Positions 4,944 through 20,589 of a stretch of DNA of 64,000 nucleotides are shown piece after piece; within the stretch, counting starts at the first letter, position 1; the number at the start of each line of letters is the position of its first letter. Position numbers and translations under genes: made by a program. The DNA is from an uncultured Ruminiclostridium sp. (GTDB lineage: Bacteria > Bacillota > Clostridia > Oscillospirales > Ruminococcaceae), in assembly GCA_947629925.1 (NCBI GenBank), contig CANRFO010000010.1:1-64000 (forward strand). The letters run 5' to 3'. Under the pieces are notes generated by a model. That model was not told where the DNA came from. It ran no database searches and saw nothing but the letters and a program-made list of their open reading frames with translations.

Positions 4944-6134
4944 ATAGCAAAAAACGTAATTGTGAAGGACGAATTTGGTAATTTTCTCGGTAATACCTAC
5001 CCTAAAAGAGCTAAAGGACTAATAAAAAAAGGGCGGGCTGAGAAGGTCAGTGAGTACGAAATTCGTCTTGTGGACAGTTCAGCTCCGCCCGATACGGAGG
5101 ATAATATGAAACTTTTCAATATCACTGACAACAATAATGAAACCATTACCGTTTCCGCTGAGACAGGCGAAGTCATTGAAACCGCCGCAAGCGACATTCC
5201 CAAAACGCCTGAGACAGGCGAGGTCATTGAAAACACCGCAAGCGACATTCCCGAAACGCCTGAAAAGCAGACTGAAAACGCAGATGAGAAAAAGGCGAAA
5301 ACACTTTTTTTCAACGCAAGGGAATGGAAGCCCAGCAAGGAATACGACAAAACTGTGGCCACCCGTTCCTTTATCACAGACCCGTTCGGAAAGCTGACTG
5401 AGGCCTATATGATAGGCGACTGGGACTGGCACTGGTCGCAGATAGAAACGGCGGAGCTTGTGCTGGAAAAGAATACGGACTATGAATTCGTGTTCTGGCT
5501 CAACGGCGGAGAGAATGACAGAAATCAGGAGACCTGCCGACTTGAGATAGTTTTCGACGCAGATAACGAAAACCGCTCTATCTACAATCTCAACCGCAAT
5601 TTTATCAGGTACGAAAGGCATTATAAGGGCTGGTACCTTTACAGGATACCTTTCAATACGGGCGACGCCTGCTACACAAAGCTGAGATTTGTCGCAATGG
5701 CGGCTTGCGCCACCGTTATGCACGCAGACGAGCCTGAAAGCTATGTAGACCTGCCTGAGGATCCCGCTCCCACGGGACTGCCGCAAAGGCACAACATATT
5801 TTTCGGCGAGGGATTTCCAAGAAACGCCCGCTGGTCGAAGGACGCATTCCCCGATATGAAAGAGGAGCAGCAAAATAAAGCTGATCAGAACACTTTCAAC
5901 GAGGAGCAGCAAAATAAAGCTGATCAGAACACTTTCAACTTTGACTTTTTCGGAGGAGCAGATGCAGATTCCATACGCAGGACAGTTATGGAACGTATCC
6001 AGGAGGAGCTTGAGGACGAGTTCGACGTGGACGATATTGCGGATGAAGTGGCGGAAGAGGTAATGGATAACATTGACGTTGACGCTATAAGAGATAAGAT
6101 AATCCAAAGTATCAGGGACAGTTTTAAGATGTAA
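4944..6134 (+). CDS. Unknown acidic protein with KNVIVKDEFGN start motif and internal duplications; apparent AUA start
   Basis: About 396 residues. The best ribosome site, AAGGGGGAAG (4928-4937), is placed six bases before ATA at 4944, not before any ATG; from there the protein reads IAKNVIVKDEFGNFLGNTYP, matching a lead-in (MAKN-I/V-VKDEFGN..G.TYPKRAKGLIKKGRAE) I recall from other Ruminococcus-type proteins. The first ordinary start is GTG at 4962, which would cut this motif. Then come a linker with two 17-residue repeats, a beta-rich middle domain of roughly 190 residues with conserved aromatic residues (DWDWHWSQIE, YEFVFWLNGGEN, RHYKGWYLYRIP) that resembles a carbohydrate-binding-like sandwich, a 13-residue exact tandem duplication, and a very acidic helical tail (EELEDEFDVDDIADEVAEEV). 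No signal peptide. Function unknown. Confidence 0.7.
   Translation: MAKNVIVKDEFGNFLGNTYPKRAKGLIKKGRAEKVSEYEIRLVDSSAPPDTEDNMKLFNITDNNNETITVSAETGEVIETAASDIPKTPETGEVIENTASDIPETPEKQTENADEKKAKTLFFNAREWKPSKEYDKTVATRSFITDPFGKLTEAYMIGDWDWHWSQIETAELVLEKNTDYEFVFWLNGGENDRNQETCRLEIVFDADNENRSIYNLNRNFIRYERHYKGWYLYRIPFNTGDACYTKLRFVAMAACATVMHADEPESYVDLPEDPAPTGLPQRHNIFFGEGFPRNARWSKDAFPDMKEEQQNKADQNTFNEEQQNKADQNTFNFDFFGGADADSIRRTVMERIQEELEDEFDVDDIADEVAEEVMDNIDVDAIRDKIIQSIRDSFKM
5160..5261 (+). repeat. Two 51-bp in-frame tandem repeats
   Basis: Copies at 5160-5210 and 5211-5261 differ at only a few bases and encode ETGEVIETAASDIPKTP and ETGEVIENTASDIPETP. Located in the linker after the N-terminal motif. Confidence 0.9.
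5862..5939 (+). repeat. Exact 39-bp tandem duplication
   Basis: Bases 5862-5900 and 5901-5939 are identical and encode EEQQNKADQNTFN twice, in frame. Exact identity implies a recent slip or unequal crossover. Confidence 0.95.
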
Positions 6135-7497: not shown

Positions 7498-7602
7498 ATT
7501 TCAAAGTTTCCTTTCATTTATAGGTTGTTGTATCAGTATTCTTTGCAAAGCGTTGGGAATTATTCGGTTTTTTGGCGGAAGGTGGTTAAAGTTTTTTTGT
7601 AA

Positions 7603-7633
7603 ACAAAAAACGCAGATAAAAAATCTGCGTTTT
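7603..7633 (-). terminator. Terminator of the tubulin/vWA operon
   Basis: Stem AAAACGCAGAT / ATCTGCGTTTT with a five-A loop and a T tract on the minus strand, ten bases after the stop of the 1448-residue gene. Confidence 0.85.
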
Positions 7634-7642
7634 TCATTTTGT

Positions 7643-10600
7643 TCAGTTCGGCTTTACAACATCATCGTCGTTCTGCGCTTCAAATTCTTCCTGATGGTTT
7701 ACAGGCGGAAGAGGCTTTTTGCTGTGGGAAAATCCTATCATGGTCATTGTTCCGCAGAAAGCGGGGTCAAGAGGCAGGACTGTGTTCATGAACGGCGTGG
7801 GGTTCGTGAGAACGGTGCCTGTTGAGAAAGGATAGTTCGCACGATAACGCAAAAATCCGTATCCGTACTCGTCATTACGGCAGGAAGCGTATATTTCCTC
7901 ACGTTTTGCCACGGCAGGCTCATTTATCAGATATGCATACTGTATCTCCGCCCATTTCGCCATGCCTTCGTAAACCTCAAGGCTCATGGACTGACCGTAC
8001 CTTTGCTTTATGTCATGGTCGTTCCAGTAAATATACTGCCAGATATGAGTAAGCTCATGCGCCATGGTAAGCATTGTTGACATTCTGGGGGCGCCGTTTT
8101 CCATATAAAGGCTGTAACCGTTCTTATCCCTGACGGCAATGCCCAAGGCTCTTCCGTCCCGCTGCGGAGAAGGCACTGATCTTTGACCAAGACGCTGCTG
8201 CATCGTCTTTGCGCTTGCGGCTTCAACACGGATACCCACATTTATCTTTATGCCGAAAAATGCTTCCATGTTTCGTTTTACGTCCTCAAATACCTTTCTG
8301 AACTCGGCGGCGGTCTTAATGGCTGTTCTGCTGCAGCTCAGGCAGCGGTCCCTTCCGTCAAGCAAGGTCTCATACTCAACTCCGTATATCTCCGTGCCGC
8401 AGAAATCACAATACCTTGAACCTGCCCGATCAGGTCGGAACATCGACTCGGTCATCTTTGCCATGCTGCGACTTTCTCTCGCCTTTTTCAAGGGATTTTT
8501 GTCAAATCCGAGAGCGGTAAGATAATCAAGTGCCGCCGCCGTGTCCATGCAGGAAGGTTCGCTTTCAAAACCGAACAGAGTGTAGCAGCGCTTACTGTAT
8601 GGGCGGCGAAGGAATATTTCCCCATTCCGCGGCGCAGGCGCCGCAGGTCTGTCGGCGTTCTGAGCGGGAGCAGCGCCTTGAGGTATCTCGTCTGTTACCT
8701 TATAAGTCACGGCGTTGGGGTCTTTTATGCTGTCAGCGCTCAATCGCCCTGTAAGCACCTGAGCGACTACATCGGGGGGAGGAGTTTCAAACGGGTTTTT
8801 GCCGCGTTTTCTGCCAAAGAAGCCGCGTACCTTTCCGAAAAAGCCGTCGCTGCTCTTTATTGCTTCCGCATCGTCTGCAAAAGCAATAGGCAAAGCAGGT
8901 GCGGAAGGCTTAGTATCGCTGTTTTTCAAAGACTCGGCGTGCCAGCAAAGGTAGTCCTGAATTATGCCGAGGATACGTTCAAGATTTCTCTCCACCGCAA
9001 TAATAAGTCCCAGATCAAGCTGGCTGTCTTCAATAATATAAATGCATTTATCGGCTTTTATCTTATATGTAAGCGGTTTTGCCGTGACCTCTTCCGTGAT
9101 GAAGGAATCGTCGGTGACAGCACAGATATAAGGCTGATTTTCGGCAAAAAGAGTTCTGAAAACTTCGTTCAGCAGCACCGTTACGGTATAGCGGACAGTA
9201 TCGCTGAGTTTTCCGTCAGCTTCGGGAAGCTGTATCCTGAGTATTTCCTTTCCGCGGTAAAAGCGGTCGGGGATACTGCTTTCATCGCCTTCAAACAGTA
9301 TTTTCCTTGCTGTGGAAAAGTCGTTGTAGGATATCATACGGTAATAGCCGTAGGTCGATACTGTTATGTCGGCGTACTCCTTTATGACTTTTATGCCTGA
9401 AATGCTTTTCCCTGTTCCTATGCGCCCGAAGGGTCTTGTGCCGCTTACGGTGTATTTGCGTAGCTGACGATATGAGGGACGCCCGTCGATATGGTCGGAA
9501 GCTCGGCGGATAATAACGTTCCCGTCAGCGGTAAGATACTGCATTTCGTAATATTTGCCGCCAAAGGTAAAATACTGACCCGGCAGGTATTTCTGATAAA
9601 TATGCCCGACAAGCTCGCTGCCAAGATAGCTAGTACCGTCATTTTCATCTTCGGCAACATATCCTGCGGAAAAAAGACCGCTTACGCAGCTTTCTGTAAA
9701 CGACTGACTGCGGATAGAATATACATACTCGGCTTTTCCCTGCTTCAAATCAAATTTCTTTTCGGTATTTATCAAAGAAATACCGTAGCTTTCGCCTGAA
9801 ATCGTCATTTTTATTTCTGCCGCAGTCTCCACGTCATAGCGATAATTGCCTGACAACGCGCTGTACTCGGAAAGTGAAGCGCAGCAGCTGAATATTTCGT
9901 ACCAAAGCTGCTTTTTAATGTCAAACACCTTTATTCCCAGAAGAGAAAGTTCTTTTTCTATCGTGGATTCACTGACGGGAGCGGTACTCATCATAAGGAT
10001 AAGCTTTAATGCAGTGTTTCGGTTCGTTTTGGCATAATCTGGAACGATGAACGGTATCGCCTTGGGGTCGGCTTCAAACACCTGTGCGTTATCCGCCATA
10101 TAATCTTTCAGCAGGTAATTCGAGGAGATTATGTTGATAAATCCCTGCTCAGTGGAGCGCGTTAAAAATTCGCGGAGTATCTCAAACATATTGAAGGATT
10201 CGTCCTCAACGGTGAGATAGTTGTTTTTCTTCACTTCGGCAGACCAGAAATCAGGCGTTACATGAAAATGCTCGTCCATGGATTCCTGACTTGCGGGAAG
10301 TCCCGCGTATTTCATAAGGTCGTAATAATACTGCTTGTTTATCCAGCTTATATCGGTGACGGGAAAAGCGTCACCGCCGTACCAGCCTGTGTTTGAGACC
10401 TGATTCTTCAATGCGGCAAAGGACAGCTCCGTGCCCAGTCCCAGATACCTTGAAACTCCCGGAATAAGCCTGTGGTGCAGATAATCGCCGTCGGCTTCCC
10501 AGCACATATAGGAAGATGTTCCGCTATGGCGCCTGATGGCTGAAACCTCGGAAAGATCGGTCATAAGGATATGGGACATCGCGTCAACAAGACCGTCGCA

Positions 10601-11989
10601 GTTTTTGTCGCACATACAGTAAACGGCGTTTTTCATGCACTGTTTAACTATAAGGTTAAGCCCTGTCTGAGCCGTTGATATAAGCTTTGACGGCTCGATT
10701 ATAACTATAAAGCCGACTTTTGAAAGGAACGACGCATTATCGGAACACAATCCGTTTTTCGGTATGTCGCGGCGGGGCAGTATGGCGATATCAGGCTCGT
10801 TTTTGCCGCTTCCGAGAATGTCTATGTTCCACATGGAGGGAATGTTGGTAACAGCTTCTATGCCCTTTTCGAGCCATTTTCTTATATCATCCTCGACAGC
10901 GTGCCTTCCCGGGATCACAAGGACCTTTCTGTGGCGTAAAAGCTGCCTGTTCATCGGATAAAATGCATACGGTATAAGGTCGTAATAGAACGGGTCGTTA
11001 AAAAGGACGCTTTTTTCGTTAAGCAGGTCAAGAGATGAATTTATATAGTTATGGTCAAGCTCAAATCCCGCCGAGTTCAAAGAGCGGATATATGACGCAA
11101 AGCTTATGACCTTGGGGTCCTCGCTCAGCTCAAGCTCTCTTATTATCTCGTCATTAGTGGCAGGAGGAAGGAAGCTGCTGCTCACATCAGTGCTTTCGGC
11201 AAGAAGTTTATCCCCGAACAGCGAACGGAGGAATTTTCTGAGAAGAGAATAATTGACCGTCTTGAATGAGTTTTCGTCCTCACCGAGAAACGTTATATAC
11301 TCACGCTTCGTTGTACCGCCAAGGTAGAAATAAAGCTCTCCGACGATAAGAACGCCCAGTACAGGGTGAAAAACCGACATAGGCATACCGTCAATATGAA
11401 GCTGACGGCTGACAAACATCATCAGCACGGAAATAACTATCGCCGCAAAGTAAAATATTTTCAAAAATCCCCGTGCCTGAACATTGTTTTCTATGAGGCA
11501 CCAGCTGTTCCTTTCGGGGAAAAACTCGTAAAAAATGCTCGCTGCGGCTGAGTGAAGGCGGCCGTCAGTTTTGACGAACTTTGCCATCAGATAAGTGCAA
11601 AACTTTTTGATAAGAAGATAAAGCCCAATCGCAGCAGTATCCGTTATAAAAACTATCCACACTTCAAGGTCAATACTTTTCGTAATTCTTAGGAGGAAGG
11701 CGCCGATCTGCATAAATACCGAACCTACGCCCCATCGCGGAACGAACGGGAGATCGGCCACCTTAGCTATTGCCCACGGAACGGCGTTTATAAAACGAAT
11801 GAGCCAGTTCTCAGCAAATGTTGAAACAGCCATTATAACGCCGACATAAACCAACGCGATAACTGGCATGAAAAACTGCTTACTGCGCCCCGCTCTTTCA
11901 ATATTGGCTTTCTCATTCACAAAGCAGAGAAAAACAAACGGAAGGATAGCAGCGACCATTATCAAGGCGTTAAAAAGAAAGTCAGTCAT
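7643..11989 (-). CDS. Giant membrane protein with degenerate helicase-like centre and C-terminal LIM-like zinc finger plus HEXXH peptidase (DA1-like)
   Basis: 1448 residues, last gene of a four-gene operon. Seen: about five membrane helices in the first 230 residues (for example LIMVAAILPFVFLCF, PVIALVYVGVIMAV, IFYFAAIVISVLMMFV); a long central region, roughly 300-1000, with blocks such as VLVIPGRHAVEDDIRKWLE, DIAILPRRDI, FIVIIEPSKLISTAQTG and YFTFGGKYYEMQYL, which feel like a superfamily-2 helicase that lost its Walker motifs; a basic/proline linker; CDFCG...CLSC, a treble-clef pair like the LIM finger of plant DA1; then MAHELTHIWQ with downstream EVYEGMAKWAEIQ, a gluzincin-type zinc site. 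The layout LIM finger, then HEXXH, then EG matches DA1 peptidases. Start overlaps the upstream stop by 8 bases. The peptidase call is firm on motifs; the helicase resemblance is weak inference. Confidence 0.8.
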   Translation of the reverse strand: MTDFLFNALIMVAAILPFVFLCFVNEKANIERAGRSKQFFMPVIALVYVGVIMAVSTFAENWLIRFINAVPWAIAKVADLPFVPRWGVGSVFMQIGAFLLRITKSIDLEVWIVFITDTAAIGLYLLIKKFCTYLMAKFVKTDGRLHSAAASIFYEFFPERNSWCLIENNVQARGFLKIFYFAAIVISVLMMFVSRQLHIDGMPMSVFHPVLGVLIVGELYFYLGGTTKREYITFLGEDENSFKTVNYSLLRKFLRSLFGDKLLAESTDVSSSFLPPATNDEIIRELELSEDPKVISFASYIRSLNSAGFELDHNYINSSLDLLNEKSVLFNDPFYYDLIPYAFYPMNRQLLRHRKVLVIPGRHAVEDDIRKWLEKGIEAVTNIPSMWNIDILGSGKNEPDIAILPRRDIPKNGLCSDNASFLSKVGFIVIIEPSKLISTAQTGLNLIVKQCMKNAVYCMCDKNCDGLVDAMSHILMTDLSEVSAIRRHSGTSSYMCWEADGDYLHHRLIPGVSRYLGLGTELSFAALKNQVSNTGWYGGDAFPVTDISWINKQYYYDLMKYAGLPASQESMDEHFHVTPDFWSAEVKKNNYLTVEDESFNMFEILREFLTRSTEQGFINIISSNYLLKDYMADNAQVFEADPKAIPFIVPDYAKTNRNTALKLILMMSTAPVSESTIEKELSLLGIKVFDIKKQLWYEIFSCCASLSEYSALSGNYRYDVETAAEIKMTISGESYGISLINTEKKFDLKQGKAEYVYSIRSQSFTESCVSGLFSAGYVAEDENDGTSYLGSELVGHIYQKYLPGQYFTFGGKYYEMQYLTADGNVIIRRASDHIDGRPSYRQLRKYTVSGTRPFGRIGTGKSISGIKVIKEYADITVSTYGYYRMISYNDFSTARKILFEGDESSIPDRFYRGKEILRIQLPEADGKLSDTVRYTVTVLLNEVFRTLFAENQPYICAVTDDSFITEEVTAKPLTYKIKADKCIYIIEDSQLDLGLIIAVERNLERILGIIQDYLCWHAESLKNSDTKPSAPALPIAFADDAEAIKSSDGFFGKVRGFFGRKRGKNPFETPPPDVVAQVLTGRLSADSIKDPNAVTYKVTDEIPQGAAPAQNADRPAAPAPRNGEIFLRRPYSKRCYTLFGFESEPSCMDTAAALDYLTALGFDKNPLKKARESRSMAKMTESMFRPDRAGSRYCDFCGTEIYGVEYETLLDGRDRCLSCSRTAIKTAAEFRKVFEDVKRNMEAFFGIKINVGIRVEAASAKTMQQRLGQRSVPSPQRDGRALGIAVRDKNGYSLYMENGAPRMSTMLTMAHELTHIWQYIYWNDHDIKQRYGQSMSLEVYEGMAKWAEIQYAYLINEPAVAKREEIYASCRNDEYGYGFLRYRANYPFSTGTVLTNPTPFMNTVLPLDPAFCGTMTMIGFSHSKKPLPPVNHQEEFEAQNDDDVVKPN

Positions 11990-14384
11990 ACAATTCCTCC
12001 CTTACGATCGTGACGCTTTTCAGATAGTCAACGGGAAGATCTGAGTTTGAACCCGCATAAGACGAATATACAGACTTATGCCGCTCGGGATACGGAAAGT
12101 CGTAGGAATAGGTCTTGTTTACGGAAAAGTCGTACTCGAACGGCGCGGTGTCGGAAGGCAGAGTGGTATCGAAATTGATATAGCGGTCAAAGTCCTTGGC
12201 TATTTCTTTCATCTTTTCCTCTATATCGTACTTATGCTTTCTGAGAATGTTGCGCCTTGTATAGAAGGAATCGCCTGTGTAATCCAAAACGGAAAAGCTT
12301 CTCATAACACCGCAGGCATGACTGAGATATGAAGAAAAAGCGCCCATGCTTTCCTCGGTTTTGTTTACTGTATTTTCTATCGTGCTGTTAAACAGTTTAA
12401 GCCGTTTTATAAGCTTTTTCCGCATCACGACAAGGAAAACTATGCCTGAAGCGATGAACAGCAGGACTGCGGAGAGTATCATCAGCGATGAAGCTCCGAA
12501 GGAAAATCTGCTTATGTCGCCTGACGAAGAATTATTATGTGAGGGGACAGCACTGCCGAGTCCATTAAAAGAAGGAGAAACGGACAAGGAAGGAAAATGC
12601 TCCTTAACAGCGGCAAGAACGGCTTCCTCCAGCGCAAAGCCGCAGCTTATGCTTTCTTTATCGGCAGCGACGCTGTCCACATATTTTTCGTAATCGTTGT
12701 TGAGCACAAAGAAAGAGATGAAGCCGAAAAGAAACGCCAGCAGTGCGACAAGTCCGACAAACACCGTCTTTTTTCTTGTCATTCGCTGAGAAATAAAGCG
12801 GTCTATTACGGCGCTTTCGTTTTTCAAGCGCTCACTGAAAGAATTTGTGTCAAAAATGCGGGTGGTTTTTGAATCAACCATGCTCTGTTCTTCTTCCTGA
12901 AGCTTGAACATGACGTCGTCGCGCTGAAACTCGCCCATCTGTAAGATACGCTCGTCACCGATAAAGCTGTTCGGGGAGAATTGCTCCGATACCGCTCTTT
13001 TTACGGCGCGGCGAGGTTCGCGGAGATAACGCGTGAACTGCTTTTCTATTGAGCGGTACTGTTCTTCCCAAGGGGTCGTTCTGTTCTTCGGGCAGTTTGC
13101 GGACAGACCTATACCGCTCGTGTCGGCATACAGCTTTGAACGGTCGAACTCTCCGTCTATGGTGACAGGTATGCTGACATCGCTTTCAAAAAGGCTTTGT
13201 GAGGTCTTATTGTCTATCCTGCCCTTTAAAAATTCGGACAGCACAGCTTCGTCCTCGTCAAGCTTAGCAAGTGTTGAACGAAGCTTTGCAAAATAATCGC
13301 GGCAGAAGTTACCGATAGCTTCGTAATCAAATTCGGCGTCGGCACGGTATACGCGGCGGCTGTTCAAAGAGGAACATAAAGCGTCGTTTCCCGCCATAAC
13401 AAGCAGAAATGAAATAAAACGTATGCGGTCGGAAAGATACTGTTTGTTTTCCTCAGGAAGAATGTCAAAAAGGACAAATTTAAGCTTATCCGAATACAGG
13501 TTAAACTCGGAGAAACGGGAATATCTGTTTTCGTCCTGCTCAGCCCATATTGCGCTTCGGTTTGCGGTATCAAAGTCGAAAGTTCTCGGAGAAATGCACA
13601 AAACTTCAGCAGGCGGTGTATCATCAAGAGAAAAGCGCTCATAAATGCTTTCAAGCAGTTTATTTTTTCTTGTGTTCTCAACGGTACATTCGCACAGCTC
13701 AGGGTCGGAATAAAGAGGGTCTCCGCCGCCCAGAAGCTTAACAAAAGGAAGAACGTTTTCTGCGGAGATAATGTTTATCACAGAGGCGACATCTTTTTTC
13801 AGGACGGCTTCAAGCAAAAGCTCTGTCCGCTCATCGCTTCCTGTAAATTCCTTCAGTCTGTCCATGCCGTAGGTCCTGAGTCCGCCTGTTACAAAAGAAA
13901 GGTCAAGAGCGTCGAGCTGGACGCGAAGCATATACTCATACAAAGGCATTTTTCCCGATGAAACGTTCTCATAAAGATCCTCGTCGGTGATAACGGAGCG
14001 GAACTCGGAAAGTCCGCATAAAGCGGTGGTAAGCTGCGTCAAAGGATTTTCAGCCGCTTTTTCAAAGCACGCCAACCTTTCCGCCATACGCTTTTGCAAA
14101 GCGGGAAAATCATCATTTTTCACGCTGTCGTAATCATTCCCGCAGACGGTATAATCAAAAGGATTGCGGCATTCTATGTTGTCCTGATTCACGATTATGG
14201 CGCGCCATTCGTCTTTTTTTGATATAAGAGAATATATGTTCTCAGGAAGCATTTCTTCCAGAGAGCTGCCCTCACGGTTCCACTCTGTAAGGACTATCTC
14301 CTCGGAAAAAAGAGGGTCCAATAACATTCTGAAACGTTGGAACAGATCAAGTATGTCCCGTTCCGCTATTATGACGGTAAACAC
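11982..14384 (-). CDS. Two-pass membrane protein of the tubulin/vWA operon
   Basis: 800 residues with no family I can name. A large, probably cytosolic N-terminal part (about 1-535, starting MFTVIIAERDILDLFQRFRM), two hydrophobic helices at about 540-562 and 630-654 that enclose a roughly 68-residue, serine/asparagine-rich outer loop, and a C-terminal cytosolic part (about 655-800) with a basic stretch RKKLIKRLKL and a helical, possibly coiled segment (RKHKYDIEEKMKEIAKDFD). Sited between the tubulin-like gene (34 bases upstream) and the giant peptidase gene, which it overlaps by 8 bases. I infer a membrane platform for the tubulin-like protein. The start is backed by AAAGGAGGTGAAG upstream. 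Confidence 0.75.
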   Translation of the reverse strand: MFTVIIAERDILDLFQRFRMLLDPLFSEEIVLTEWNREGSSLEEMLPENIYSLISKKDEWRAIIVNQDNIECRNPFDYTVCGNDYDSVKNDDFPALQKRMAERLACFEKAAENPLTQLTTALCGLSEFRSVITDEDLYENVSSGKMPLYEYMLRVQLDALDLSFVTGGLRTYGMDRLKEFTGSDERTELLLEAVLKKDVASVINIISAENVLPFVKLLGGGDPLYSDPELCECTVENTRKNKLLESIYERFSLDDTPPAEVLCISPRTFDFDTANRSAIWAEQDENRYSRFSEFNLYSDKLKFVLFDILPEENKQYLSDRIRFISFLLVMAGNDALCSSLNSRRVYRADAEFDYEAIGNFCRDYFAKLRSTLAKLDEDEAVLSEFLKGRIDNKTSQSLFESDVSIPVTIDGEFDRSKLYADTSGIGLSANCPKNRTTPWEEQYRSIEKQFTRYLREPRRAVKRAVSEQFSPNSFIGDERILQMGEFQRDDVMFKLQEEEQSMVDSKTTRIFDTNSFSERLKNESAVIDRFISQRMTRKKTVFVGLVALLAFLFGFISFFVLNNDYEKYVDSVAADKESISCGFALEEAVLAAVKEHFPSLSVSPSFNGLGSAVPSHNNSSSGDISRFSFGASSLMILSAVLLFIASGIVFLVVMRKKLIKRLKLFNSTIENTVNKTEESMGAFSSYLSHACGVMRSFSVLDYTGDSFYTRRNILRKHKYDIEEKMKEIAKDFDRYINFDTTLPSDTAPFEYDFSVNKTYSYDFPYPERHKSVYSSYAGSNSDLPVDYLKSVTIVREELYD

Positions 14385-14418
14385 AGCTTCACCTCCTTTG
14401 CCTGATATTTTTGCGTTT

Positions 14419-17400
14419 TCAGCTCTTTATAAGCTCTCTCAGCTCTTCTATCTTATCAACAAAGTTGAATGTGCGGAGCTTTTCAAGCTTGTTGCTCACC
14501 TTGCGGAAGGCGATATTTACAACACGGTTGTCGCTTATGTCGGTGTTCCTGCGCAAAGAATCGCCTACGTTATAAGCGTCGTTTTTAAAGTTGCGGACAA
14601 AGAGACGGAACTGCTCCTCAAGAAGTTTGGAAAGGAAGGGAGCTTTATCCGATTCCTGCTCGTAGCGGTCAACTTCCTCCTCAAGCACCTTTATGACGCT
14701 GTCCGTCATTATGGCAAGCTCGTTGTCGTCAAGCTTTGCGCGCGGAAGCGAATTGTAATAAGCAAGGGGTATCTCAAAGAGGCTTGTGGGAGCGGCGTGT
14801 ATGTCGCCCACCTCAAAGCTCATCACGTCGCGCATGAACGCGCTTTCGTTGTATCTGTGGTTAGCCTGCTCGTCATACTTGCGGCGTTCCTTTGCCATAG
14901 ACTCGATCTTTGCCACGGAAGCCCTGTCTCTGTAAAGAGAATCAAGCACCTCGTAAAATTCGTCGCACTCGGTCTCGTTTGAAACGATAAGAGCGGTAAG
15001 CTCGCCCTCTGTGTCCTCCAAAGCGTAAATGCGCTTAGCAGAGTCGTATTTTGAGGAGGGATGTGTTCTCAGCATTCCGTGAACGACGCCGTATATCAAG
15101 GCGGAGTGTATTTTCATCATTTCCTTGTTATGTTCGTCCATGGATATTTCAGGCATTTCCGTGATGGAATCCCAGCGTTTGTCTATGTGAAGGGAGATAG
15201 TGGCGCATTTGGTGGAATCGGGACCTATCTTTTTTATATAATCGTGATAAGCCTTGTAATAAATACCGCTGTCATCACTGCTCTGACCGTCGCTTGCGCA
15301 GGCTTCGGGACTTCTGAAGCGGGCAAGCTTATCGGGAGTGATGTTGTACAGGGCGTTGAAAAATCTTATTTCGTATTTTGATACGGAATCGGCGGCTCTC
15401 GGTGAAATGCCGATAGATTCGAGAGTTTGCTTCACGTTGAACTCCCTTATATCGTCAAGCGATTTATTATAAGCGCACAAAGGCACGTCGCGAGGCTCGT
15501 TGAAATTCGCGCAGCTGATACCGGGCGAGGCAAGCTTTCTTCCTGAATCGACAGTGTCTTTAAGATAGCTGTAACGGCTCTCGTCGCTTATTACAGGAAC
15601 GACTATGTCCTCGTCGGGACCTTTGAGGCTGTTTTCGTTTATGAACGCCTGAAGCTTCTGCTCGGTTATTATGGCGCGGATTATGTTAAGGTTTATCACC
15701 TCGTCGCAATCACGGCGGATAGATTCTCTGAAATAATCAAGGACAACGTCGTCGAAAATATCGGTTTTTACATAACTTCCGTAGGTGTCATAAGCGGCAA
15801 GACGGTCGCACTCGGCATTTTTCTTTATGTTCTCGAAGATCTGTGCATTAAGCTTATCGGGGAGCAGCAAGCCTTCGCTTCCTTCGGGACACATATCCAT
15901 AAGCATATCCAGCTGTTCCCTTGTGGCGCAGACGTTGCGCACACTGTCGCCCTTATTGAATTTAAGCTTCTGCACTATCTCGTCCTTGCGGCGGGATAGA
16001 GATACCACCTTTGCCTCAAAGCTGTTGAAAAAGCGCTCAAGCTCGGCGCAAAGCTGTGCTACATAGTTTCTTGCGACATCATATGCCGCTTCCTTTATCA
16101 CTTCGTCACGATAAGCGTTGACTGCGGAAACATAGGCGGGGAAAAGCTCGTTCAGCTTATTCCAGAGAGGATTGAACCCGCCCGATATTTTGTCTATGAG
16201 TCCCAGATCCATGTTTTCTATTGCACAGACCTGATCGAAGTTTCGCTCTTTTTCCTTTGAATAACGGGCTTTTACGTCAAAGAAATCTTCGTTGTCCGCC
16301 TGAGGGGAATATATCATAAGCTGCCTGAACGCATCTTCAGCGCGGCTCTTGCTCTTTTTGTACCTTGCGTCCATATTGTTCTTCAGCAGGTACAGCATGT
16401 AACGCATGGCGTTGGGGTGCATCGCTCCATCGTTTGAACGGAGGAGCCTTTCGATATGGAAAGGCTTTACGTCCTGACTTGTGATCGCAGGGGCGTCGTA
16501 CATGAGCGAGCGGGCTTTGGATTTTGCAACAGAAGCGGCGCGGCTCTTTACTATGCTTTCATAGCTTCTGACTGCCGCAAGATTTTCAACGGCATGACCG
16601 CGATCCTCTTCGTTGGAATCGTACTGCTTTTCAATAGCAAGGCTGTTGACGGTTATCATAAGACCTTTTATTTCAGGCATTTTGAGAAATTCCTTCAGCA
16701 GTTCGTTTTCATACTGCTTCAGGAAGTTGTTCACGGTCTTCAGGGTCTCCTCCTCGACCTTTTCGGGGTCGTTGGAAAGATAGCGCTTTATATCGTTATC
16801 AAAACGCTTTTCGCCGCGGTTTACCTCAGCTATGTAAATTTCGCTGAGCTCTGGGGCGGGTTCGTTGGAAGTGGCGCGCTTTTTCTTGAACTCGGCTCTC
16901 GCCTCGGAATATTTCTTGTCGTACTTTATCCATTCGCCCACGGTGTCGCCGTCGCCTATTCTGTCCATAGCGCGGCTGTAAGCGATATAATCGGCTATGT
17001 CTTCATAAGGGTATCTGACAACGGAAGCGCCTATGCCGCCGAAACGGTTTCGTCCCAGATTATCACCGTTGGAGACTTCCTTGATTATGTTATCCTCCAT
17101 GGAAAAAGCGTCGCGTTGCATTGGACCGATATTTTGCTCATAAAGGCTTCTTGCGGCAAAATCCTTATACTGGTCGAGCGTCTGCATACTCTCCTGGCTC
17201 TGGTCAACACGGTCAAGAAGAAAACAGAAATCAAAGGGAAGATTATCAAGGCGCTCAACGCCGCTTGATGTGGTGGGTATGTCGATATGAAGGTCGTCAA
17301 AACGCTCAAGGTCTTTTCTCACTCCGCAAAATCCGCTCGCCTTTATCATAAAGGCGTTTATTTCCTTTACGGTAGCGTAACCGTTCCTGCGCAGGCTTTC

Positions 17401-18024
17401 ACGTTCCACCTCGGTTTTTATTACTGTATCCATAACGCCGGGCAAAAGCAGGAAGCCGCGGACTATAAGAGATTTCTCACGGTAATGCTTCTGAAGATAT
17501 TTACGGACCATCATGCCCACCGTCATGGCAATACCTGAACCTGTACCGCCGCAGGCAGATGAAACAACGATAACGCGAAGCGCCTGTTTCAGTTCCTCGC
17601 CGTCCTTGAGGAAAAGGCTGTCTATGGCTTTATAGAGCTTTTGTATCTCGCCTGTTTTTATCGTGGCATTAAGGGCAAGGCGGGAAATGGCTCTCACCTG
17701 ACCTGCGCCTTCAGAAACCGTTTTTGAATACATGGTGGTATTATTTGGGAACCATTTCAGGCGGGCGTCGTCGTCATGTCTAAGATAATCTAAAACGGTC
17801 TGGGGAGATGAGGTCTGTATAAGGGTGACATTCGCCTTGGAGCCCTTCACCCCGCGCAGGTCGTTCACATTTGTATCCATAGCGACAAAGCGGATATTAC
17901 CCGTTTCGCCGTCCCTGCACATTTCCGCTATGCGCGTGATTATTTCGGAACCGATACCGCCCACTCCTATAAACAGAGTTGCGGAAGTCTTATTGATACC
18001 GACTTTCTCAGGTGCGTAATTCAT
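14419..18024 (-). CDS. Tubulin/FtsZ-superfamily protein (Tubulin_2-like), 1201 residues
   Basis: The N-terminal domain shows the tubulin-superfamily nucleotide site: FIGVGGIGSEI (residues about 18-28, the first glycine-rich loop) and SSACGGTGSGIAMTVG (about 155-170), which is the tubulin signature GGTGSG. Between them FVAMDTNVNDL and SEGAGQVRAIS fit other loops. The remaining 900 or so residues are mostly helical and without membrane segments. FtsZ itself is about 350-400 residues, so this belongs to the long tubulin-like families found beside von Willebrand A genes; such pairs have been proposed to form a membrane-remodelling system. It probably assembles on the membrane with the vWA and two-pass proteins encoded in the same operon. 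24 bases separate it from the vWA gene; a good GGAGGAAG ribosome site precedes it. Confidence 0.88.
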   Translation of the reverse strand: MNYAPEKVGINKTSATLFIGVGGIGSEIITRIAEMCRDGETGNIRFVAMDTNVNDLRGVKGSKANVTLIQTSSPQTVLDYLRHDDDARLKWFPNNTTMYSKTVSEGAGQVRAISRLALNATIKTGEIQKLYKAIDSLFLKDGEELKQALRVIVVSSACGGTGSGIAMTVGMMVRKYLQKHYREKSLIVRGFLLLPGVMDTVIKTEVERESLRRNGYATVKEINAFMIKASGFCGVRKDLERFDDLHIDIPTTSSGVERLDNLPFDFCFLLDRVDQSQESMQTLDQYKDFAARSLYEQNIGPMQRDAFSMEDNIIKEVSNGDNLGRNRFGGIGASVVRYPYEDIADYIAYSRAMDRIGDGDTVGEWIKYDKKYSEARAEFKKKRATSNEPAPELSEIYIAEVNRGEKRFDNDIKRYLSNDPEKVEEETLKTVNNFLKQYENELLKEFLKMPEIKGLMITVNSLAIEKQYDSNEEDRGHAVENLAAVRSYESIVKSRAASVAKSKARSLMYDAPAITSQDVKPFHIERLLRSNDGAMHPNAMRYMLYLLKNNMDARYKKSKSRAEDAFRQLMIYSPQADNEDFFDVKARYSKEKERNFDQVCAIENMDLGLIDKISGGFNPLWNKLNELFPAYVSAVNAYRDEVIKEAAYDVARNYVAQLCAELERFFNSFEAKVVSLSRRKDEIVQKLKFNKGDSVRNVCATREQLDMLMDMCPEGSEGLLLPDKLNAQIFENIKKNAECDRLAAYDTYGSYVKTDIFDDVVLDYFRESIRRDCDEVINLNIIRAIITEQKLQAFINENSLKGPDEDIVVPVISDESRYSYLKDTVDSGRKLASPGISCANFNEPRDVPLCAYNKSLDDIREFNVKQTLESIGISPRAADSVSKYEIRFFNALYNITPDKLARFRSPEACASDGQSSDDSGIYYKAYHDYIKKIGPDSTKCATISLHIDKRWDSITEMPEISMDEHNKEMMKIHSALIYGVVHGMLRTHPSSKYDSAKRIYALEDTEGELTALIVSNETECDEFYEVLDSLYRDRASVAKIESMAKERRKYDEQANHRYNESAFMRDVMSFEVGDIHAAPTSLFEIPLAYYNSLPRAKLDDNELAIMTDSVIKVLEEEVDRYEQESDKAPFLSKLLEEQFRLFVRNFKNDAYNVGDSLRRNTDISDNRVVNIAFRKVSNKLEKLRTFNFVDKIEELRELIKS

Positions 18025-18048
18025 TGAAACTTCCTCCTTGATCTATTG

Positions 18049-20268
18049 TCATTTATGTCTCAGCTTGCAAATCAGTGTTGATACGGGGGATTCCTCGGTG
18101 CCTCCGCGAATGGTGATAAGGGCGTTCTTTATGTCCTGCTCCAGCGGTTTTGACGCGGCGCTCGGCGGCACTCCCCTCTTTATCCATTTTCCTGAGCCGT
18201 CAGGTATGTACTCGGTGGCTCCTATCGTTATTGAATAAGCGTTGGCGGAAGAAACTCCCGTCACGCGTATGCGCCTGTCCTTTGATTTGGTGAAGCGCTT
18301 GTCTATCGGCTTTAATGTCAATCTTGCGCTGCACTGCGCCGAATAATCGACCTCGTTGGGGGTGGATATGACCAAAGACTTGTTTTTGCGGGAATATTTC
18401 ACCGCAGCGCGGAGATTTTCTATCTCCTCGTCCTGAAAATCAAGCTCGAAACGGGTCGAACGAGGCTCCAGCATAACGCTCTTGGGCAATGTCTTGCGGG
18501 TCATTATAAACAAAAACGTGAGCAGAGCCAATCCCAGCAGTACGAGCCAGATGAGCCAGCGCCAGAAGCGGTCGTACATGCGTATCTCAAAATAAGATGA
18601 CGCGTCGTCTGACATCTCCTGACCGTAAGGGTCAAAGAGAGAAGCCTTCGCATTTATGCGGTAAAAACCTGTCGGAGTATCGTCGGCGCCTTTGATATAC
18701 ACATTTACAGCCGATTCTCCGTAAACAGGCTCGGTCTCAAAGCTGAGCTCAGGCGAAAAAGCTATGTCGAGCTGAAGCTCGTCAAGCTGCTCATCAGTAA
18801 GAGGTGCGCCGTCAAGGCTTAATGTAAGCTTTACAGGCTGCCAGCTGTCACGGTCGGTGGTCTTGTACCACGAGAGAGGCTGCGTTACGTCCGACGACAG
18901 GCGGAGAGTACCCGCAGGCGGAGGAGCTATCTTTAAAGGCTGAGGTATAGCGTCGGTGCCTTCGGAGGTTATAGTATAATCTTCAAGATAAGTTCCGTAT
19001 GCGGTTATAAAAGTGCTGTCATCAGGCTCAAGGGTTATCTTTCCTCCGTTGGGGACTTCTATCGGGTCTTTTCCCAACTGACGGACAGAAGCGATAAGGT
19101 AAACATCGCCGCCCATAAGCACGGAATTTGTGACATCTTCGCCTGTAACATTGTCAACGATACAATAATTTAATATGTAATCGCCTGTGGGAATTTGGGA
19201 GAACGGGTCTATCGGAACACCTTCAAGGTCGGTAAGCTCTATGGCTATATCAACATCAGGGTCGTAGAACACCTGGACCGACTCGGCTCCCGAACAGTCA
19301 AGAGTATATGTTCCCTTGGGGCAGGAATCGAAAGTCACGACCTGACCTGCAAGGTCGGTATCCACTGCCGCGTCTTCATAGCCCAACGCCTTTATTTCGC
19401 TGTATTTGCGCTGACCGCTGTCCTGAAGGACGGGGATCGTTCTTCCGTTCTCATCTGTAAGAGAAACTATCTGCGCGCCGCTTCCCTGCGCAAAAACAAG
19501 CAGTTTTCGCATTGAAAGGTCAAGAGTAAGCGTATTTCCCGCAAGATATCCCGCGGGAAGCTCCACTCGTCTGAAAATGGAGTTGCAGATAGATATAAGG
19601 TCGTCTTTAAGGCTGGTATCGGTAGACTTCTTGGCATAAAAGCCTTTGGATTCGTCGGAAGCAAGCATTGTGGCTTCGCCAATGCCGAGATACTGCACCT
19701 TTACATTTCCGTCGGCAAGAGAAGAAAGTTCCGCCTGAAGGTCGATATTTTCCTCGCCCGCCCAGATCGTGCGCTCACGCTCGTTAAACGCTCCGTCCGT
19801 AAGGACTATCAGCCATTTTTCAGAAGCGGCGGAGGTCTTTAAACCGTCATATGCCTCTCTTACAGGGGCAAGAGGAGTATTTGACGGGTGAACGGTATAG
19901 AGATCGCTTATTTTATCGACATCGCTCAAAGAAGTTATTTCAAAAGGCGCGTAGCTTCCGCCCGTTTCGGGGCGCGAACCGTCAGTAGTGACCTCCCACA
20001 TGGGATATACCGTAAGGCGATCGCCGCCTTTATAATCCAGCATGGAAGCAAATATTTCCATCGCGTATTTGGCACGGCACCACGCCTTGCTCCCGTCGGC
20101 GTACATAGAGCCTGAATTGTCAAATACAACGGCAATATCATAGGTCTTTTCGACCTTACTTATACCTGCGCCTGCGGCGTTCAGCGGAAACGCCGATACT
20201 GCGCAGAACAATGCGGCTGCTGCAAGTACGGATATGCCCTGCCGCAGGAATTTTTTTATATACATCAT
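18049..20268 (-). CDS. Secreted, membrane-anchored von Willebrand factor A domain protein
   Basis: About 740 residues. Signal peptide at the N-terminus, then a vWA domain from about residue 43: VVFDNSGSM gives the DxSxS metal site (residues 52-56), Thr in SNTPLAP (about 133) and Asp in VLTDGAF (about 160) complete the MIDAS, so metal-dependent ligand binding should work. Beta-sandwich segments follow outside the cell to about 565, then one membrane helix (about 569-591) and a cytosolic tail of 150 residues with a beta-rich fold. It would connect an outside signal to the tubulin-like partner inside. First gene after the promoter at 20420-20448. Two other ATGs lie within nine bases; I chose the one best spaced from AAAGGA. 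Confidence 0.88.
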   Translation of the reverse strand: MMYIKKFLRQGISVLAAAALFCAVSAFPLNAAGAGISKVEKTYDIAVVFDNSGSMYADGSKAWCRAKYAMEIFASMLDYKGGDRLTVYPMWEVTTDGSRPETGGSYAPFEITSLSDVDKISDLYTVHPSNTPLAPVREAYDGLKTSAASEKWLIVLTDGAFNERERTIWAGEENIDLQAELSSLADGNVKVQYLGIGEATMLASDESKGFYAKKSTDTSLKDDLISICNSIFRRVELPAGYLAGNTLTLDLSMRKLLVFAQGSGAQIVSLTDENGRTIPVLQDSGQRKYSEIKALGYEDAAVDTDLAGQVVTFDSCPKGTYTLDCSGAESVQVFYDPDVDIAIELTDLEGVPIDPFSQIPTGDYILNYCIVDNVTGEDVTNSVLMGGDVYLIASVRQLGKDPIEVPNGGKITLEPDDSTFITAYGTYLEDYTITSEGTDAIPQPLKIAPPPAGTLRLSSDVTQPLSWYKTTDRDSWQPVKLTLSLDGAPLTDEQLDELQLDIAFSPELSFETEPVYGESAVNVYIKGADDTPTGFYRINAKASLFDPYGQEMSDDASSYFEIRMYDRFWRWLIWLVLLGLALLTFLFIMTRKTLPKSVMLEPRSTRFELDFQDEEIENLRAAVKYSRKNKSLVISTPNEVDYSAQCSARLTLKPIDKRFTKSKDRRIRVTGVSSANAYSITIGATEYIPDGSGKWIKRGVPPSAASKPLEQDIKNALITIRGGTEESPVSTLICKLRHK

Positions 20269-20349
20269 ATTCATCCTTTATCGCGCTTATGACCCTGAAT
20301 GTCCTGCAAAGCCGTTTGTAATAAGCTTTGCGTCTATCCTTCAAATATT

Positions 20350-20367
20350 TTCCGCCGATTGGCGGAA
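20350..20367 (-). promoter_or_regulatory. Leader hairpin of the tubulin/vWA operon
   Basis: Perfect 7-bp inverted repeat TTCCGCC-GATT-GGCGGAA in the roughly 140-base leader, between the promoter and the vWA start. No riboswitch fold recognised. Apart from this hairpin, the promoter and the terminator-like repeats, the 315-base gap 20275-20589 holds nothing I can name. Confidence 0.5.
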
Positions 20368-20419
20368 AGCTTGCTTTTCGGTAAAAATTCATATTTTAAA
20401 AGTATGTATTTTCTGTTTA

Positions 20420-20448
20420 ATTTTAACATAAAAAGCGGCTTTTGTCAA
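20420..20448 (-). promoter_or_regulatory. Promoter of the tubulin/vWA operon
   Basis: Minus strand TTGACA (20443-20448), 17-base spacer, TAAAAT (20420-20425). Confidence 0.8.
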
Positions 20449-20459
20449 TATAAGCCGCT
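20434..20459 (-). promoter_or_regulatory. Inverted repeat overlapping the -35 box (operator or terminator)
   Basis: 8-bp arms AGCGGCTT / AAGCCGCT flank ten bases that contain the -35 hexamer; the near arm sits in the promoter spacer. It is followed by TTTTT on the minus strand, so it may instead end read-through from the SDR gene. Confidence 0.5.
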
Positions 20460-20547
20460 GTTTTTCGATATTTTTTTGATTAAATTTTACTTTTTTGCAA
20501 AAATTCGCAAAATTTGTCAAAATTTATGTTATTTTGCTGTTTTTTAC

Positions 20548-20580
20548 ATAAAAATACCCCGAATCATTAAAAATCCGAGG
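20548..20580 (-). terminator. Terminator of the SDR gene
   Basis: 7-bp stem CCTCGGA / TTCGGGG (two wobble pairs), then TATTTTTATG on the minus strand, directly after the stop codon. Confidence 0.65.
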
Positions 20581-20589
20581 TAAATTTTT

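Follow-up and report, generated by a model that had tools for sequence, protein, structure and literature searches.

The stretch of DNA analysed here (the window) covers 64,000 nucleotides of a contig from an uncultured Ruminiclostridium sp. and contains four tightly packed open reading frames on the minus strand, at 7643–20274 (-). These encode a vWA protein, a tubulin-superfamily protein, a protein with two transmembrane (TM) segments (TM2) and a large membrane protein with a peptidase end (PEP). New here is the recognition of this constant four-gene subtype of the FtsZl1-vWA systems, with a putative metallopeptidase output and with accessory effectors that can be named, which connects a bacterial relative of tubulin with channels of CASTOR/DMI1 type and with TIR-LRR proteins. 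The gene order in distant bacteria and the channel- and immune-type neighbours suggest a surface-triggered alarm or defence response, not ordinary division. Our leading reading, held tentatively and at somewhat less than even weight, is that this FtsZl1 (Tubulin_2)-vWA subtype is a membrane-spanning module for sensing and proteolysis, most likely in conflict or defence. This makes a broad prediction of 'membrane remodelling' specific enough for experiments.

Within the window the vWA gene (18049–20274, -) is followed by the tubulin-superfamily gene (14419–18024, -), the TM2 gene (11982–14384, -; GTG start) and the PEP gene (7643–11989, -). The C-terminal peptidase module of PEP, residues 1181–1448, was delimited by motifs and alignment (7646–8449, -). 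The spacings are 24 bases between vWA and tubulin and 34 between tubulin and TM2, with an 8-base overlap of TM2 and PEP, as the first-pass annotation had them (-8 to 34 bases); median gaps across related loci are 26, 33 and -8 bases. Its proposal of a single operon is supported by the shared order and strand in relatives. Its expression signals stand as candidates by consensus. The promoter at 20448–20420 (-), TTGACA-17-TAAAAT with TG ahead of the second hexamer, matches 11 of 12 consensus positions, and such sites are only modestly more frequent in the scanned region than chance would give (27, compared with 19.1 +/- 4.2 in shuffles). The proposed terminator corresponds to a 12-bp palindrome at 7606–7634 (-), possibly bidirectional, which was scored on the plus strand and belongs to a class of sites found at chance level (22, compared with 21.8 in shuffles). 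Both calls therefore rest on position and not on site counts.

The tubulin-superfamily protein has 1201 residues and comprises a Tubulin_2 domain (residues 17–352) with GGTGSG and a long C-terminal part; no TM segment is predicted in it. The match to Tubulin_2 (PF13809) at 1.8e-54 and the motif confirm the original assignment, and GGTGSG is present in all 64 tubulins compared (63 loci and the window). When the profile of these tubulins was aligned with 16 FtsZ sequences by hhalign, the match (E 3.3e-5, probability 72.5%, 105 columns) was confined to what we take to be the T1–T4 part of the nucleotide domain. For the C-terminal part, which in FtsZl1 is a coiled-coil or alpha-helical region, profile searches gave nothing better than weak matches to helical proteins, the best at 0.0028. 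A canonical FtsZ is encoded in the window genome as well. The Tubulin_2 domain, the GGTGSG motif and a vWA neighbour with DxSxS bear out the suggested kinship with FtsZl1 of Makarova and Koonin. For FtsZl1, the main text of their paper also reports likeness to FtsZ over T1–T4 only, T6–H7 being not alignable (PMC2875224).

The vWA protein (741 aa) has a signal-peptide-like segment (13–31), a vWA region with DNSGS, one TM segment (574–592) and a cytoplasmic tail. By the positive-inside rule, the charges flanking the TM segment predict that the vWA domain lies outside. Its Pfam vWA match is weak (0.0054, below cut-off) and a PDB profile search gave no match at 0.1. Residues D52, S54, S56, T133 and D160 are invariant in 18/18 aligned homologues, in a placing that we take to be that of the MIDAS site. 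DxSxS is present in 59 of 64 vWA proteins (63 loci and the window); in the other five (L035, L053, L063, L092 and L099) the N-terminus is absent from the available pieces. The signal-peptide-like start, the single TM segment and the invariant metal-site residues uphold the description of a secreted, membrane-anchored vWA protein. TM2, called a two-pass membrane protein from the start, is 800 aa long and has an N-terminal region of about 540 aa and two predicted TM helices (543–561 and 635–653), both of its ends being predicted, from charges by the same rule, to lie inside. Profile searches with TM2 found no significant known domain, the best match to PDB profiles being 0.088.

PEP (1448 aa) consists of N-terminal TM segments, probably about five, a large middle region, and a C-terminal zinc motif followed by a metallopeptidase motif. 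The positive-inside rule predicts that its body, including the middle region, is cytoplasmic. The module contains C1194, C1197, C1216 and C1219, HELTH at 1311–1315 and E1341. Across PEP proteins the zinc motif and HE[LM]TH are present in 64/64, from loci partly chosen on HELTH, and the glutamate downstream of HExxH, the presumed third ligand, in 63/64, L048 having DG where EG is found elsewhere. In an alignment of the modules of 14 loci, C, HELTH, W, Q and E are invariant in all 14. With HExxH, a downstream glutamate and zinc-ribbon-like cysteines, the PEP end is a putative zinc metallopeptidase. At 18/80 loci the peptidase stands as an open reading frame of its own after the membrane and middle part. 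This favours a functional connection between them; some of these splits may be assembly frameshifts. A further C-terminal part is fused to PEP in 12 loci and separate in 11 others (23/80 in the profile table), and is transglutaminase-like by Pfam (L027 at 2e-11, L088 at 6e-7, L041 at the cut-off).

Is the PEP end a member of the DA1 family, as had been proposed together with a LIM label? Presumably it resembles the DA1 LIM-peptidases in its series CxxC...CxxC, then HExxH...EG. The metallopeptidase motif HExxH...E stood up to analysis; the DA1 assignment did not, in that the Pfam DA1-like family (PF12315) had no match at E<=1 in hmmscan and in the window genome, and nothing beyond the CxxC...CxxC motif was found for LIM. 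We know of no counterpart in DA1 LIM-peptidases to the PEP middle region and TM segments. Against PDB profiles, the best match of the peptidase module was a ribosomal zinc ribbon (0.0088), residues 215–1414 gave nothing at E<=1, and full-length PEP gave one match at 0.061. The middle region was also aligned by hhalign with a DEAD-helicase profile of five sequences, presumably RecQ-like (5/30 DEAD loci met the motif filter); the E-value was 0.029 and the probability 1.7%, compared with E-values of 0.083–0.5 for five controls, so that the helicase-like label first given to the protein is no more than a possibility, in the form of a dead helicase-like fold. A P-loop-like string in the window PEP, GRIGTGKS, was rejected as not conserved: Walker A (GxxxxGK[ST]) occurs anywhere in 4 PEP, 1 vWA, 0 TM2 and 0 tubulin proteins, of 64 each.

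The set of four genes is retained far more faithfully than chance allows. In the family, a PEP relative was found in 5/148 genomes, the window genome included, with the same gene order around it (in G052 it is split over contigs and in G066 the contig stops before vWA). A five-sequence PEP alignment was then used to scan genome_contigs (one genome per species, 84,980 species), with selection partly on HELTH; 194 relatives were confirmed and the locus counts cover 80 of them. With the four genes recognised by an iterated profile per protein, scored on all open reading frames of these 80 loci, vWA-tubulin-TM2-PEP was found in that order on one strand at 63. Of the 17 others, 16 have no more than 386 bases between their first recognised gene and the end of a contig. 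The remaining one, L098 (6951–22085), carries the two membrane genes, its PEP having both HELTH and the zinc motif; a 3018-aa open reading frame with 5 predicted TM segments follows them, and the 6.9 kb upstream contain no tubulin or vWA gene. The pairwise distances of the four proteins also correlate (Mantel r 0.69–0.90, n 58; six loci with an incomplete or split vWA gene were left out).

Because the first scan was selected partly on HELTH, a second search was made with the TM2 profile. It found TM2 in at least 15/394 genomes of the order, the window genome included; this is a lower bound because the threshold of 1e-8 missed G094, from the same 394-genome draw, whose divergent operon is L027. 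In a phylum sample there were 2/398, both already in the first set. Besides the window, the search yielded 14 loci, all with tubulin and PEP and 13 with vWA (L148 is cut). Nine lie on contigs of the first set (L135=L057, L136=L049, L138=L064, L140=L042, L141=L038, L143=L083, L146=L058, L147=L036 and L148=L093), and the five new ones (L137, L139, L142, L144 and L145) each carry the complete set. Every PEP C-terminus present (12/12, 3 of them on new contigs) contains HELTH and the zinc motif, and no TM2 copy without tubulin and PEP was seen among the 14 loci. The first-pass annotation had asked whether homologues of the two membrane genes are mostly apart from the tubulin/vWA pair. They are not; the two genes belong with the pair in a fixed order, with L098 as the one real exception.

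How does this set relate to described systems? Makarova and Koonin predicted the FtsZl1-vWA systems in 2010 and proposed membrane remodelling as their role; Jekely, a reviewer of the paper, suggested that FtsZl1 could serve in transport and/or signalling (PMC2875224). According to the main text, those systems share with the window operon an N-terminal FtsZ-like nucleotide domain with a long C-terminal part, a secreted or membrane vWA neighbour with DxSxS (intact in most members), and uncharacterised membrane proteins; the window operon differs in that its set of four genes is fixed and includes a metallopeptidase fusion. The words 'peptidase' and 'channel' are absent from that main text, and Additional files 5–6, which list neighbour families, may include TM2 or PEP without a function. 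The four window proteins gave no GTPase, protein kinase or OmpA matches, and we found no experimental study of FtsZl1-vWA systems in the open-licence PMC literature. Kaur et al. (2020) interpret DO-GTPase/GAP1-N2 tubulin-vWA systems of firmicutes and actinobacteria as conflict systems (PMC7159879). These also combine a tubulin with a C-terminal extension, a vWA protein and membrane proteins. In contrast, no DO-GTPase or GAP1 match was found in the four window proteins, nor in their four neighbours (SpoVT, SfsA, the open reading frame at 4962–6134 and a dehydrogenase). Two genomes of the same bacterial family carry other FtsZl1 loci whose neighbours do match DO-GTPase2, above the cut-off at L029 and below it at L030; in the tree the tubulins of these two loci do not fall within the four-gene set.

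Clustering of flank open reading frames gave a RyR-domain family of about 600 aa, a CASTOR-type family of about 700 aa, a family of 154–180 aa with one N-terminal TM segment (9/80 loci), and TIR-LRR proteins. The CASTOR-type profile matches the chains of the plant ion channels CASTOR (4.7e-17) and DMI1 (1.1e-16) in the PDB, and 8/15 family members match Castor_Poll_mid at 0.01, which makes this accessory a putative channel of CASTOR/DMI1 type by profile. It differs from the plant channels in being bacterial and in adjoining a tubulin-vWA-peptidase operon, and it has no match in the window genome. The RyR-domain family matches a RyR chain at 1.1e-13. CASTOR-type genes occur in 8/394 genomes, 4 of them with the system (p 8.8e-5); the four full-length matches are all in system genomes and on the contig of the system, one of them 6 kb away (p 1.4e-6), and the other four are partial and in genomes without it. 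The RyR family, present in 41/394 genomes, was found in 9/15 with the system and 32/379 without (p 1.9e-6; 10/16 and 31/378 with G094 added), and its gene is on another contig in 6/9 RyR-positive system genomes.

TIR matches were found in 18/470 flank open reading frames, spread over 16/80 loci, and are denser in co-directional downstream runs (9/101) than elsewhere (9/369; p 0.006). The flanks carry about 27 TIR open reading frames per Mb, compared with 0.60 per Mb in 31 relatives, a rough comparison since two different profiles were used. Four accessory classes (CASTOR/DMI1-type channel, RyR-domain channel-like, TIR-LRR and transglutaminase-like) were counted anywhere in a sampled locus, on either side or fused to PEP. 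Where a locus extends 3 kb or more downstream (n=63), a channel or TIR gene is present in 36, any of the four classes in 38, and neither channel nor TIR gene in 27; in the set from the TM2 search, a channel or TIR gene is present in 5/14 sampled stretches. From every downstream run up to four genes were taken, counted from its start, which gave 89 proteins (of 101 run open reading frames; one 3018-aa neighbour was left out). Eight of these match TIR_2. Some of the 89 match PADLOC families, 58 in all, and those listed (25 of 58) include models for TIR (matched by up to 4 members), mad8 (3) and DrmC (2) as well as many with a single match. The longest arrangement, at L051 (1606–22653), is co-directional and runs vWA-tubulin-TM2-PEP-171-aa family-CASTOR-RyR-TIR/LRR-transglutaminase-like. 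At L056 (16810–24412) two very large open reading frames, of 1667 and 832 aa, lie downstream, the second with a TIR match. No accessory gene stands beside the window operon; neither a CASTOR nor a RyR match was found in the window genome, whose one TIR gene lies elsewhere than the operon. The core must therefore be able to act without accessories.

The locus is subject to gain and loss. In the same-genus genome G919 the flanks are 91–96% identical, and a segment delimited by blastn block edges at window positions 7527–20582 (no strand) is replaced by an unrelated 2.5-kb cassette (L161:10693–13205) with MarR, two flavodoxin-like, TSCPD and glutathione-peroxidase genes. Among the genomes listed for the order sample, 12 others belong to the same genus and none of them has a TM2 match, and the operon is patchy in the order as a whole. 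The G+C of the segment (0.473) and of the rest of the window (0.474) give no compositional sign of recent transfer. In a quick tree of tubulin domains (47 rows, SH-aLRT only), 40/41 four-gene rows form one group. The L027 tubulin pairs with an Azospirillum plasmid tubulin beside this group, so that the four-gene label needs two changes on the tree; the set may still have had one origin. The Treponema tubulin pairs with a Peptococcaceae row (support 100). The L107 (Eggerthellaceae) and L095 (Lachnospiraceae) tubulins also pair (96), and this was given no weight because of a long-branch-join warning. The operon records are titled Bacillota, actinobacteria, Treponema and two 'Proteobacteria', and many titles name a gut or rumen source; the isolates Pseudoflavonifractor sp. 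An44 and Faecalicatena contorta ET51 are among the records from the PEP scan. Since the rows are mostly metagenome bins, cross-phylum placements may be mis-binned contigs; this may apply to L091, a 'Proteobacteria' record whose tubulin falls among Bacillota rows.

What might such a module do? In the model that we infer for complex formation, polymerisation, signalling order, substrate and defence, the vWA domain would bind a ligand outside via its metal site and pass its state through the TM helix. The tubulin-like protein would then assemble inside, GTP-dependently, on TM2 and PEP, and the assembly would gather and switch on the cytoplasmic zinc metallopeptidase of PEP to cleave a cytoplasmic target. 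Where accessories are present, the output could reach an ion channel, of CASTOR/DMI1 or RyR-domain type, or a TIR-LRR protein, which would stop cell physiology, most likely as a conflict or defence response. A more specific version is doubtful: that this is a tubulin-based immune complex in which the vWA receptor nucleates tubulin assembly, which acts through the metallopeptidase to open the channel or free the TIR-LRR effector. If true, bacterial relatives of plant symbiosis channels would gain a role in prokaryotic immunity.

The membrane remodelling proposed for the FtsZl1 family by Makarova and Koonin (PMC2875224) would have filaments of the tubulin-like protein on the inner face, with TM2 and PEP as anchors, bend or pinch the membrane, the peptidase being regulatory. 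FtsZl1 membership and the predicted membrane location of vWA, TM2 and PEP agree with this. However, the operon is patchy and replaced in a close relative, a canonical FtsZ is encoded in the same genome, the FtsZ region beyond T4 that forms filaments is not alignable, and channel and TIR-LRR accessories do not fit, so that we consider remodelling unlikely here. The CASTOR-type channel, RyR-domain and TIR-LRR accessories point more to sensing and conflict or defence. An export complex of the vWA and TM proteins, in which the peptidase processes cargo for inter-bacterial competition, would account for the peptidase and transglutaminase-like domains and for the 154–180-aa family, but no exporter ATPase is found among the four proteins, Walker A being conserved in none, and no cargo gene was recognised; this seems very improbable.

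The distinction between defence and other uses of surface sensing is finer. Signalling of surface contact or envelope stress, unrelated to phage, would have the vWA domain sense wall, mucus or neighbours, with proteolysis and ion flux shifting the cell state. A predicted extracellular vWA domain with an intact metal-site motif, ion-channel accessories, the gut or rumen sources and Jekely's suggestion (PMC2875224) all suit this reading, which is possible and on the unlikely side, as TIR-LRR accessories and locus gain and loss are more typical of conflict systems. The variable, effector-like companions and the gain-loss pattern of the operon are like those of conflict systems, and Kaur et al. 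(2020) interpret tubulin-vWA-DO-GTPase relatives in that way (PMC7159879). Against the defence reading, none of the PADLOC-DB families matches the four window proteins at E<=1, the loci with neither channel nor TIR gene are many, and the RyR gene is often on another contig. Additionally, the TIR enrichment may mean merely that variable islands are shared. We therefore keep sensing and proteolysis in conflict or defence as a tentative preference.

Searches for a mobile origin and for more distant FtsZl1 loci gave several further observations. A phage origin was rejected (73 PEP pattern matches in viral_contigs, 0 confirmed), as was a plasmid origin, the tubulin search of plasmids giving 7 records, distant only. 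Among phage records the tubulin search gave one match, L117 (MT836542.1), a 9.8-kb unverified 'Bacteriophage sp.' with vWA and tubulin genes of this type, probably a fragment of bacterial DNA. L028 and L031 are further genomes of the same family with other FtsZl1 operons. On the Azospirillum ramasamyi plasmid (L115, 513435–545033) an FtsZl1 locus encodes a TM protein of 710 aa, a protein of 1118 aa and a vWA protein of 897 aa. The 710-aa protein was rejected as a TM2 counterpart, having no similarity to TM2, and the 1118-aa protein lacks a peptidase end and shows a weak alignment to PEP (E 0.0041, probability 8.3%); this alphaproteobacterial locus is possibly a distant version with another gene order. 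On the Thermus oshimai plasmid pTHEOS01 (L116), genes for TROVE, vWA, tubulin-like and hypothetical proteins are immediately followed by one annotated as brxL (BREX).
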